Shown here piece after piece: positions 7,999 through 12,639 of a DNA stretch of 64,000 nucleotides. Position 1 is the first letter of the stretch; the number at the start of each line of letters is the position of its first letter. Where the stretch lies: the NCBI GenBank assembly GCA_001567275.1, contig LNBX01000024.1, positions 124,001-188,000 of the forward strand. The letters run 5' to 3'. The notes under the pieces are model-generated. The model did not search any database, was not told where the DNA came from, and was given only the letters and a program-made list of their open reading frames with translations. The translations under genes were made by a program, and so were the position numbers. Source of the DNA: Bacteroidetes bacterium OLB10. Its GTDB lineage: Bacteria; Bacteroidota; Bacteroidia; AKYH767-A; OLB10.

Positions 7999-8016
7999 AG
8001 ATTGAATGTAATAAAA

Positions 8017-8043
8017 AAAGCAGGTAAATGAATACCTGCCTTT
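8017..8043. terminator. Rho-independent-like hairpin between convergent genes
   Basis: Stem GCAGGTA (8020-8026) pairs with TACCTGC (8033-8039). On the minus strand it is followed by a run of T, so it best serves as terminator of the leftward heme-uptake operon; on the plus strand it ends in CTTTAA and could also stop the M1 peptidase transcript. Confidence 0.65.
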
Positions 8044-8127: not shown

Positions 8128-9363
8128 TTAATTCTTCACTAATTTAAGCTGTGTTTGCTCACCTGCGGTTTGAATGTTTACTACGTAAATGCCCGCTGCG
8201 AATCCGGCAGTAGGGATATCTATCCGTTGCATACCTGCCAACTGATAATTGCTTTTGTAAACACTTTTTCCGCTGATATCATAGATATTAATTTCTGCCT
8301 GCTGATTTTTTGTTGTAGTCAGCACAAGTGATGTGTTGTCAGTAGCAGGGTTGGGATATAATGAAACCACATCAACCGTTTTTACATCGTTTACACTTAA
8401 CGGGCCTAAGTCATACTGGTCAAAATAAAAATTACCATTTGCAGAACCTCCAAAGCCGGTAAAAACAATTTTCCATTTATGTGCATGACGGTCAATTACA
8501 AAATAAACAGTAGAGTCGGCAACAACGTATGTGGTTCCGTTAAAAGATTTCCAGTCGTAGCCAATGATGTTGTTGTCAAAAGAATAAGTAAGTCCTGCAT
8601 CAGTTGCTGTAGCAGCATCCACAGGATAGGCTTTTACTGCCTGCACACTGTCGTTGGTAAGCACTCCCGTAACTTTGTAATTGATAAAATGGTCAACATA
8701 CTGTGCAAAGCTCAGATCCCAATCCTGTTTCAGAGGTTCACGGTCTAAATATTGATCATTTTGAATAGAGTAGTACCCGAAATTTTTGCCGGGATAATTC
8801 AGTTTGTTGAATGAACGTAATACTTCATTGCTGCCGTCTAAATCTGCATAGCGAAAGTTGTAAGTAGAGTTAGACAAAGATTCAATACAAAGTTTTTTAT
8901 ATGTATTGTTGCTGAGTTTGATAAAATAAATTGAGTCGCCCATGATAATATGAGTTCCCAGATCATAAATACCCCATCCCAAATCGAATTGATTACTTGT
9001 ATCAGCAGTGGTGTTGAAAGCACCATTGAACATGTGTGCTTCATTATTTAAAAGCTCATTGTTGGTCATGCCTGCGGTGTCGGCAACTGTCATGCTTAAC
9101 CACTCCGAAACATTTTTATTTGCGTTGTACAGCTTCACATTATTTTTTGAATTAATGAGTATGGCAGCTTCAAATCCTGAAATCTGAAATGCCAGATCCC
9201 AGTCGGTATTGCTGACTGTTGATACTGTTGCATTGGCCATGCTGTAAAATGTTTGATCGGCATATCCTGTGTTGGTAGTTACTGTTTGTTGCACTTGTGC
9301 AGTTGCCATTACAGGAAGCAGTAATGCTAATATGGTTTTTTTAATAGTTGATAAATGTATCAT
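8128..9363 (-). CDS. HmuY-like protein with T9SS type A sorting domain
   Basis: A 411-residue secreted protein: signal peptide (ends ...VMATAQ), an HmuY-like body and a C-terminal T9SS type A sorting domain (last ~75 residues, starting VVSLYPNPATDN and ending in IYVVNIQTAGEQTQLKLVKN). The body holds the repeated phrases of HmuY-like proteins: DWDLAFQ near residue 55, DWDLSFAQYVDHF near 215, then GYDWKSF. HmuY proteins bind heme and hand it to a TonB receptor. It lies 18 bases after the HmuY lipoprotein and ends the operon. A heme binder exported by T9SS would be released or surface-attached instead of lipid-anchored. The HmuY link is by motif only. Confidence 0.75.
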   Translation of the reverse strand: MIHLSTIKKTILALLLPVMATAQVQQTVTTNTGYADQTFYSMANATVSTVSNTDWDLAFQISGFEAAILINSKNNVKLYNANKNVSEWLSMTVADTAGMTNNELLNNEAHMFNGAFNTTADTSNQFDLGWGIYDLGTHIIMGDSIYFIKLSNNTYKKLCIESLSNSTYNFRYADLDGSNEVLRSFNKLNYPGKNFGYYSIQNDQYLDREPLKQDWDLSFAQYVDHFINYKVTGVLTNDSVQAVKAYPVDAATATDAGLTYSFDNNIIGYDWKSFNGTTYVVADSTVYFVIDRHAHKWKIVFTGFGGSANGNFYFDQYDLGPLSVNDVKTVDVVSLYPNPATDNTSLVLTTTKNQQAEINIYDISGKSVYKSNYQLAGMQRIDIPTAGFAAGIYVVNIQTAGEQTQLKLVKN

Positions 9364-9381
9364 GTAATTATAGTATTGATG

Positions 9382-10413
9382 TTATAAAATTCGTTGATAT
9401 TGAAATGCCGGGCATCCGCGCAACCCCTGCGCATTGTAGAAATCGTAATACTTCAGTTTGTAATATTCACCATTATGGTTTTTTATCACATAAAATAAAT
9501 TCGGAACGATGTAATACATATTGGTGTTGAAATCAAAATCTTTCCAGTCGAAGCCCATGATATCTGCATCAGCATAGAATGGAAAATTGGGAATGTCATT
9601 ATGATTGAATACATCAAAAGGTTTGTATCCGGGTACTGAATCTTTTTTCAGGATGGCACAGGACGTTTCATTCCATCTGTTGGTCATGGTTCCGTTTACG
9701 AGATAAAACCTGAACTGCAACGTCTCTTCCCAGTATGTATGTATGTAGCGCGTGAAAACAATGTCCCACTGATCTTTGGGTGGAGCCAATGAAACCATGG
9801 TTCCGCCATTGGAAAAGCTAAAATACATGAGCGAATAGGTGTCGTCTTTTGGAACAGTGAATTCGTGATAATCGCTGTTGTCAAGTTTGGAATAACGTAT
9901 TACATATTCACTGCTGCTGATTGAAACTATCTGTAATTTTCTGTATCTGTCGCTGCCGAAGTGGTTATACTTGCCACGGTCAATCACTACAACAGTGTTG
10001 TTGCAGTTTCCTGAAGCATCCTTATTTTTTCCAAAAGCAGTGCTGTCGCCCAACCAGGTATCAGCATCTGTTGCCCACACCAATCCTGTTGTATCCGTAT
10101 TTGCAAGGTCAGTTGAAGCTGAACGCCATGCAAACATATACTTACCTGTATTCAGATAGATATATTGTCCCTGCGGTGATGCTTCAAAAGCCAGGTCATA
10201 ACTTTTGATAGCACTGTATTTAGTATCTCCTGTAGCCAGGTTTACAAATATCATGGTGTCATAATTCACTCCCATACTCACCTGCATGGAACTCATGGTG
10301 GTGTCAATAGGAGGAAGTACTATTGCCTTGTCATTGTCTTTTTCGCAGGATGCAAACAGCAATGTTGTGATGATTGCAGAAACAAAAAATAAAAGTTGTT
10401 TTGTTTTTTTCAT
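9382..10413 (-). CDS. HmuY-family lipoprotein (putative heme binder)
   Basis: A 343-residue lipoprotein: lipobox LLFASC with Cys near residue 23 followed by acidic residues, suiting outer-membrane export in Bacteroidota. The C-terminal block FYVIKNHNGEYYKLKYYDFYN and then GCPAFQYQRIL is the HmuY signature, as is DQWDIVFTRYI mid-protein. HmuY of Porphyromonas gingivalis takes heme from host proteins and passes it to HmuR. The gene starts three bases after the TonB receptor stop, so the two are tightly coupled, supporting the hmuR-hmuY comparison. Ligand identity is inferred. Confidence 0.82.
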   Translation of the reverse strand: MKKTKQLLFFVSAIITTLLFASCEKDNDKAIVLPPIDTTMSSMQVSMGVNYDTMIFVNLATGDTKYSAIKSYDLAFEASPQGQYIYLNTGKYMFAWRSASTDLANTDTTGLVWATDADTWLGDSTAFGKNKDASGNCNNTVVVIDRGKYNHFGSDRYRKLQIVSISSSEYVIRYSKLDNSDYHEFTVPKDDTYSLMYFSFSNGGTMVSLAPPKDQWDIVFTRYIHTYWEETLQFRFYLVNGTMTNRWNETSCAILKKDSVPGYKPFDVFNHNDIPNFPFYADADIMGFDWKDFDFNTNMYYIVPNLFYVIKNHNGEYYKLKYYDFYNAQGLRGCPAFQYQRIL

Positions 10414-10416
10414 TTG

Positions 10417-12639
10417 CTAAAGACTCAGTTGAAGTTTAATACAGTAAAGTCTGCCCGGCAGTACGGATGATGAACTGCTGCTGCTTCCATGCACCTGACC
10501 GGTTGACATTTGTCTGATAGTTGAAACGTTGAAAAGATTTTTTACCCCTGCACTTAATGTGAATCGCTCTTTCCAGAAAGATTTACCGGCAATAATATCC
10601 ATCACCTGATAAGCTTCGCTTCGCAGAATACTTTCTTGTTCAGCATCATCTACCACAAACACCGGCATGGCTCCGTTATATTTATAATAAGCATTCACAT
10701 TAACTCCAACTGCCGGCCATTGCCATCCGAGAGCACCGTTGACCTGTGTGTACCATTCCGGATTATTGCTGCCTTCTGCATATTGCGAAGAATTGCCCGT
10801 ATATGCTACACCACCGCTCAGCGACCAGTTGCCATAAGTTACTGTCTCCGTCCATTCGGCACCTGTTGCTGTGTAATGTCCAACATTGATGTAGGTGTAA
10901 AGGTTGGATGTATCGCTGTACTGTGCTAATGTAATCAGGTTCGACACTTTATTATAAAAACCTTTTATTTCTGATTCCAATTGCAGCTTTCCTGTTTTGT
11001 AGCGATGGTTCAGTGACAGCTGATAGTTGTCAGACGACTCAGGTTGAATATCAGGATTGCCCTGAATGTTGTGATTGATATCCACAAAATCGAGATACAG
11101 CTCTTTCAGTCCGGGAGCACGAAAACCTTTGCTGTAACTTGCACGCACTGCCATAGCAGAAGTAATATCATATTTTACATTCACCGATGGAAGCAGCGGA
11201 GTTTTGTACATGGTGTTGTACGAATAGCGCAAGCCCGGTCTGATGAGAAGATTTTTTATCCCTGTATATTCAGCACTGGCAAAAACTGCATAATCATCCA
11301 CATACCGGTTGCGGTCGAGTCGCTTGCCGTTTCCGTTTTCAAGATTAATATCTATCCCTGTCTGAAAATTTATTTTACGTGAGTCATTGATGTGATTCCA
11401 TGTGCTGCGGACATTCCATGCAGCAAATGTTGTAGTGTCACGAAATTCAGGAGTTGTAAGCTCAGTTTGCTGAAGAGCAACCATATCTTTAAAATACACT
11501 TCTTTTCTTCTGTTGTAGGAAGAGTAAGAAACGTGACCTGTAATTTTATTTTTTTCGTCAGCATAGTAGTCATAGCTTATCACCTGACTATGTCGCAGTG
11601 TTTTGTAATATGAATCGTAGGCATAAGCTGAAAACGGTGTGATGGTAACAGGCCCTTTGTCTGTAATTTTTTCATCAAACAAGTTGAGCTGATAGTTCAG
11701 TTTTACTTTGCCAAAAACAGCACTTATCATTGCCGAACCATAATACTGTGTTTTAGGTTTCCATTCATACACCCTTCTGTCGTCTGTCAGATTCCATCCC
11801 TGAAATAAATTACGTCCGGCAGAAAGTTTCAGATTAATTTTATTCAGTGCAGCCTGAGCACTTACGTCAGCATTGTAGGTGCCAATACTTTCGTAATATG
11901 CAGTGGCCGATGCCGAATTTTTTCTGATATTCTGTGGTTTGGTAATAATGTTGATGACCCCTGCAATTGCATCAGTACCGTAAGAAGTACTCATGGGTCC
12001 TTCAACCACTTCTATGCGTTCCACATTGGAAGTGTTGAGCTGGCTCAGGTCAATATTTCCATTCATTCTGCCGATAACGGGAACTCCATCAATCAGCACT
12101 TTGATATTGTTCATATCCAAGCCCTGCATCGTCAAAGTACTTCCGAAAGCCTGATCGTAACCCGTGCGCATGTTCAGTTGTTTGCCGAGTACATCAGCAG
12201 CATTTACCGCTGCCATTGAAGAAATCTGTTCTTTGTCAATAATTTTCACTGTATAAGCCGACTGCATTACCGGTACAGGAGTGTAAGTAGAAGTGATAGC
12301 TACCTGATCAAGTGTTATTTCGCTGCGATGCAGATGTATGGTTTGCTCACCGGATGTGAGCGAAGTGAGCGTTTGAGAAATATAACCAATACATTTTATT
12401 TCAACTACAGATTTTTCAGTGTCGTGTAGCGACATGGTAACACGCCCTTTATAGTCAGGTAGATAAACGTTGGTTTTTCCTGAAGGTAAATTTAAAAACA
12501 CCACAGCCCCCGTTACTGCTCTGTTGTCAGTTGCATCTTTAATTACCAGAGTATGTTCCGAAGCAAAGAGGCCTGTTGACTGAATCAGAAAAATGAATAT
12601 AAACGCTGCTTTTCTCACGGGGGACAAAAGTATTTCCAC
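10417..12639 (-). CDS. TonB-dependent outer-membrane receptor (HmuR-like by context)
   Basis: A 740-residue receptor: signal peptide, a carboxypeptidase-regulatory-like domain (about residues 30-105), a plug domain containing VEVVEGPMSTSYGTDAIAGVINIITK (given here in part as SYGTDAIAGVINII), and a 22-strand-type beta barrel ending with Leu. It would import a bound ligand using TonB energy; the two HmuY-like genes downstream suggest heme. The longest frame begins at GTG 12639, but a TACTTTTG box (12625-12632) lies inside it, so a GTG at 12618 is an alternative start, leaving a very short or absent leader. The intergenic region to the divergent gene at 12809 is 169 bases. Confidence 0.88.
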   Translation of the reverse strand: MEILLSPVRKAAFIFIFLIQSTGLFASEHTLVIKDATDNRAVTGAVVFLNLPSGKTNVYLPDYKGRVTMSLHDTEKSVVEIKCIGYISQTLTSLTSGEQTIHLHRSEITLDQVAITSTYTPVPVMQSAYTVKIIDKEQISSMAAVNAADVLGKQLNMRTGYDQAFGSTLTMQGLDMNNIKVLIDGVPVIGRMNGNIDLSQLNTSNVERIEVVEGPMSTSYGTDAIAGVINIITKPQNIRKNSASATAYYESIGTYNADVSAQAALNKINLKLSAGRNLFQGWNLTDDRRVYEWKPKTQYYGSAMISAVFGKVKLNYQLNLFDEKITDKGPVTITPFSAYAYDSYYKTLRHSQVISYDYYADEKNKITGHVSYSSYNRRKEVYFKDMVALQQTELTTPEFRDTTTFAAWNVRSTWNHINDSRKINFQTGIDINLENGNGKRLDRNRYVDDYAVFASAEYTGIKNLLIRPGLRYSYNTMYKTPLLPSVNVKYDITSAMAVRASYSKGFRAPGLKELYLDFVDINHNIQGNPDIQPESSDNYQLSLNHRYKTGKLQLESEIKGFYNKVSNLITLAQYSDTSNLYTYINVGHYTATGAEWTETVTYGNWSLSGGVAYTGNSSQYAEGSNNPEWYTQVNGALGWQWPAVGVNVNAYYKYNGAMPVFVVDDAEQESILRSEAYQVMDIIAGKSFWKERFTLSAGVKNLFNVSTIRQMSTGQVHGSSSSSSSVLPGRLYCIKLQLSL

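Follow-up and report, generated by a model that had tools for sequence, protein, structure and literature searches.

A TonB receptor, an anchored HmuY lipoprotein, and a T9SS-exported HmuY paralogue: a probable heme-acquisition operon in Bacteroidetes bacterium OLB10

A three-gene operon of Bacteroidetes bacterium OLB10 probably encodes a HmuYR/HfpRY-type system for the acquisition of heme, which combines a TonB-dependent outer-membrane receptor, an anchored HmuY lipoprotein, and a second, HmuY-like protein that is exported by the T9SS. The operon lies on the minus strand of the window, i.e., the whole stretch of 64 kb that was analyzed. The first gene (10417..12639) encodes the HmuR/HfpR-like receptor, identified by Pfam and NCBIfam profile matches, the second (9382..10413) a HmuY lipoprotein of 343 amino acids with two HmuY-like repeats, identified by Pfam, PDB profiles, and Foldseek, and the third (8128..9363) a T9SS-exported HmuY-like protein of 411 amino acids, recognized by paralogy and sorting-domain profiles. 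The original prediction of a leftward operon, in which the genes are separated by 3 and 18 bases, was confirmed from the ORF coordinates. The flanking genes are divergent or convergent, and therefore the operon comprises three genes; the gene following the T9SS protein gene is convergent, so that the operon stops there. HmuS and HmuTUV do not follow downstream. A terminator-like hairpin after the last gene (8016..8043, minus strand) is well placed, in a scan in which the number of hairpin matches was close to chance. A possible Bacteroidota -7 element of the type TAnnTTTG (TACTTTTG, 12625..12632, minus strand), read from the sequence, overlaps the listed start of the receptor gene (12618-12639). 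The listed GTG start (12639) is probably too early, and the GTG at 12618, which would yield a better signal peptide, seems likelier.

The assignment of the lipoprotein is based on several lines of evidence. It matches the Pfam family HmuY (PF14064) over residues 195-339 with an E-value of 2.7e-10 (41 bits, compared to a cut-off of 27), profile searches of the PDB retrieved 8b6a (2.2e-12) and 3h8t (2.6e-5), and its two HmuY-like repeats align with one another at an E-value of 4e-8. The lipobox LFASC contains Cys23 (10345..10347, minus strand), and a cysteine is present at this position in 51 of 54 homologues. Met93 is a candidate heme ligand and is partly conserved (38 of 54). A seemingly single-domain lipoprotein in one related locus (L016) was rejected as apparent only, the case being an assembly gap (a run of X).

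Judged by sequence comparison, the T9SS-exported protein is a paralogue of the lipoprotein. A search against the OLB10 genome aligned residues 8-304 with the lipoprotein at 27% identity (E-value 4.6e-6), and a profile-profile comparison of 48 T9SS proteins with 54 lipoproteins gave an E-value of 1.2e-49. The protein's own sequence had no match to Pfam HmuY; in its close-family alignment of 12 sequences, three reached that family, with a best E-value of 3.8e-10. In the PDB, a profile of the 48 sequences without the sorting domain found 8b6a of B. fragilis (8.6e-6) and HmuY of P. gingivalis (3h8t, 1.3e-3). The domain organization starts with a Sec signal peptide without a lipobox (residues about 1-22, 9298..9363), as read from the translation, followed by a first HmuY-like repeat (residues 21-182, 8818..9303), a second one (residues 183-325, 8389..8817), on which most of the PDB profile matches fall, and a type A T9SS C-terminal sorting domain (CTD; residues 335-411, 8131..8361), all on the minus strand. 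The two repeats align with each other at an E-value of 2e-9 (hhalign). Both the T9SS protein and the lipoprotein are, according to these alignments, internally duplicated, unlike the classical HmuY, which has a single domain. The sorting domain is recognized by Por_Secre_tail (PF18962, 2.2e-13) and by TIGR04183 (5.8e-14, 51.8 bits compared to a cut-off of 23). The OLB10 genome contains a SprA_N match (4.0e-152), by which the T9SS is judged to be present, and dozens of further CTD-matching frames. 

The proposed comparison of predicted structures with HmuY had a divided outcome. With the model of the lipoprotein, the ten best Foldseek matches were all HmuY-type structures (E-values 2.5e-4 to 2.3e-2; low TM-scores, pLDDT 63.9), whereas the 50 best matches of the T9SS protein model (pLDDT 75.5, pTM 0.63) were sorting-domain structures and unrelated folds, with no HmuY among them. 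The AlphaFold models of both HmuY-type proteins were built on few sequences and are weak. The sorting domain of the second model matched the CTD of mirolase (8qb1) and T9SS substrate chains in 8gl6, 8gl8, and 8glk. With such a mixture of matches, the search with the full model says nothing about the HmuY part of the protein.

The T9SS protein family shows many conserved aromatic residues and one conserved histidine only, His138 (8950..8952, minus strand; 44 of 48 sequences), which is a candidate axial heme ligand. Among histidines and methionines, no conserved candidate ligands other than His138 (T9SS form) and Met93 (lipoprotein) were seen, and a conserved ligand pair as in HmuY of P. gingivalis (His/His or Met/Met) was not seen in the alignment of either protein. 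The many aromatic residues and the solitary histidine would also fit a surface capture adaptor that binds host or environmental hemoproteins, e.g., globins or cytochromes, and leaves the handling of heme to the lipoprotein and the receptor only. Such a role is known for the T9SS-exported gingipain domains of P. gingivalis. However, the OLB10 protein shares homology with the heme-binding HmuY family over its entire non-CTD part, and we regard the adaptor as rather unlikely.

The receptor is composed of a plug (Pfam, 1.6e-20) and a beta-barrel (1.8e-34) with a FRAP...His...NPxL-type box (FRAPGLKELYLDFVDINHNIQGNPDI). In the translation, the box has the form FRAP-x13-H-x4-NPDI (residues 506-531, 11047..11124, minus strand) and includes His523. 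The FRAP and NPNL motifs together with the box histidine are a mark of heme receptors (PMC6449446, PMC3832793). Of 53 related receptors that could be scored, 51 keep the box histidine (FRAP...H...GNP); a second heme-binding histidine was not seen in the plug, as the translation contains no histidine in residues 125-230. The best NCBIfam model for the receptor is TIGR01785 (TonB-hemin, 4.4e-38), though its score of 131 bits is below the cut-off of 317, and models for TonB-B12 and siderophore receptors also score.

The genomic context of related loci points to heme as well. About ten of them encode, beside the trio or the receptor-lipoprotein pair, HemS (1.5e-66), a FecCD permease, and a Peripla_BP_2 protein, together with an ATPase whose score exceeds the threshold of PRK13548, a heme ABC model; one representative per cluster was scanned for these neighbors. 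HemS was not found in the OLB10 genome, which is 96% complete. Neither ferrochelatase nor uroporphyrinogen decarboxylase (HemE) was found in this genome, which contains five genes for COX1-type heme-copper oxidases. HemB and HemH (ferrochelatase) are both absent from all 24 genomes of OLB10's family, while 14 of 18 genomes from elsewhere in the order have HemB. Every known route to heme needs HemB, and therefore heme auxotrophy is predicted for the family; on the basis of gene content, it would represent a respiring heme-auxotroph lineage. Heme as the ligand of the system is well supported by HemS and the heme ABC importer beside related loci, by the receptor box, and by the absence of HemB and HemH despite the presence of oxidases. 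Both initial readings of this operon, heme uptake and a second HmuY-like protein exported by the T9SS, are supported by the similarity of profiles, by the gene context, by the motif in the receptor, and by the predicted heme auxotrophy.

Bacteroidota use lipoprotein partners for several ligands, and together with the scores of the TonB-B12 and siderophore models this could be taken to indicate that the same layout of receptor and surface lipoprotein serves cobalamin or a siderophore. We consider this very unlikely, because TonB-hemin outscores the other models, the 64-kb window has no cobalamin riboswitch, related loci are flanked by genes for HemS and a heme ABC importer, the box histidine is kept, and heme biosynthesis has been lost. 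Cobalamin uptake was rejected as the function, given the missing riboswitch in the window and a context and motif that favor heme. A link to BtuH was sought in the literature, and none was found.

The heme-acquisition trio is conserved far beyond OLB10. In most of 11 relatives that were fetched from GTDB genomes, the genes for the receptor, the lipoprotein, and the T9SS protein adjoin. A HmuY match is present in 152 of 395 sampled Bacteroidia genomes, and among 58 loci fetched around such matches, a sample that is biased to strong HmuY scores, all three components occur together in 41, and the receptor and the lipoprotein only in 12. The lipoprotein and T9SS protein genes are on one strand in 39 of the 41 trio loci. 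The retention of the trio in related genomes places the operon far beyond chance. Most of the class has the order T9SS protein-receptor-lipoprotein, and OLB10's family the order receptor-lipoprotein-T9SS protein; exceptions among the family loci are one genome that keeps the other order (L135/L136) and one locus that is cut by a contig end. As the gene order varies, the linkage of the trio has been kept through rearrangement. In a phylogenetic tree the 48 T9SS proteins group together without exception (support 0.996), and a second clade unites 53 of the 54 lipoproteins (0.933); this separation indicates that the split is ancient. Within OLB10's family the T9SS protein is present in 20 of the 24 genomes and absent from four. 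That the T9SS protein does not feed the receptor but scavenges extracellular heme to detoxify or store it, or to withhold it from competitors, is likewise very unlikely, since, even though a separate secreted product is encoded and an hmuY deletion in Flavobacterium columnare had no growth phenotype (PMC9618737), the linkage to the receptor and the lipoprotein persists despite changed gene order, and a need for heme is predicted.

Several other genes recur around the trio. In the family loci L122, L124-L130, and L132-L134, the T9SS protein gene is followed, at a distance of about 0.7 kb downstream, by another gene that scores as a TonB receptor. Proteins with DUF6607 (14 loci) and DUF6686 (eight loci) recur beside the trio (L058, L067, L070, L075, L099, L104, and others) and are candidates for heme handling. 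At L093:9253-11555, and likewise in L056, L059, and L065, the T9SS HmuY gene is separated from the receptor gene by genes for a chelatase lipoprotein of the CbiX type and a membrane protein with FMN_bind/Fer4_5, and this pair might possibly be involved in reductive iron removal from heme outside the cytoplasm.

For the heme-acquisition module, the following mechanism can be envisaged. The T9SS would carry the double-domain HmuY-CTD protein over the outer membrane, where it would be attached to surface lipopolysaccharide or released, and it would capture heme outside the cell or strip it from hemoproteins. The heme would then be handed either to the double-domain lipoprotein, which would reside on the outer membrane beside the receptor as an anchored acceptor, or directly to the receptor, which would bring it into the cell driven by TonB. 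Heme binding by each of the proteins, the order of transfer, and attachment versus release are what we infer, and feeding of the anchored form by the secreted form would be plausible. Because heme biosynthesis has been lost but heme-copper oxidases have been kept, much of the heme for respiration probably comes in through this operon, as one of its main sources, and the operon would not supply iron only. A broader view, which is conceivable but on balance doubtful, is that of a Bacteroidia-wide module in which two ancient double-domain HmuY paralogues, using a histidine (secreted) and a methionine (anchored) as ligands, form an outward-to-inward relay that replaces heme biosynthesis for respiration in one family.

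The closest characterized pair is HfpR/HfpY of Flavobacterium psychrophilum, which also consists of a TonB receptor and a HmuY-family protein, is encoded on one transcript, and serves heme use; however, it has one HmuY-type protein, a small inner-membrane protein is encoded between the two genes, and a T9SS paralogue has not been described (PMC9331221). HfpY binds heme in vitro in a 1:1 ratio, and HmuY relatives differ in their heme ligands (PMC9331221). The HmuYRSTUV system of P. gingivalis and Bacteroides likewise combines a HmuY lipoprotein with a TonB receptor for heme, but its HmuY has a single domain, a T9SS HmuY is lacking, and the operon runs on into HmuSTUV (PMC12583661). The premise of the original prediction that known HmuY proteins are lipid-anchored turned out to be wrong. 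HmuY of P. gingivalis is also released through gingipain cleavage (PMC3832793), and HmuY of F. columnare (C6N29_01035), which has HmuY and Por_Secre_tail domains and is a predicted extracellular heme binder, has been reported to be T9SS-secreted (PMC9618737). Its domains and export route resemble those of the OLB10 T9SS protein; in contrast, the paper lists it as the sole HmuY and describes no receptor-lipoprotein partner.

Another T9SS cargo, the hemin-binding HBP35 of P. gingivalis, is of the thioredoxin type and not a member of the HmuY family. A T9SS-secreted HmuY with a sorting domain is therefore already on record, and in our literature search PMC9618737 was the only source that joined HmuY with Por_Secre_tail. 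A description of conserved double-domain paralogues, one anchored and one secreted, that share a receptor was not found in this search, and their occurrence next to a receptor in a family with predicted heme auxotrophy is new. The trio seems to be a widespread module for catching heme in two steps, of which only a part has so far been described. If this is true, the T9SS, with its proteases, adhesins, and polysaccharide enzymes, would also export a conserved protein that captures a nutrient in partnership with a TonB receptor, and Bacteroidota would have a true secreted hemophore alongside the lipid-anchored one. Furthermore, it points to an environmental Bacteroidota family that respires yet needs the heme of its neighbors, a community dependency that can be tested.
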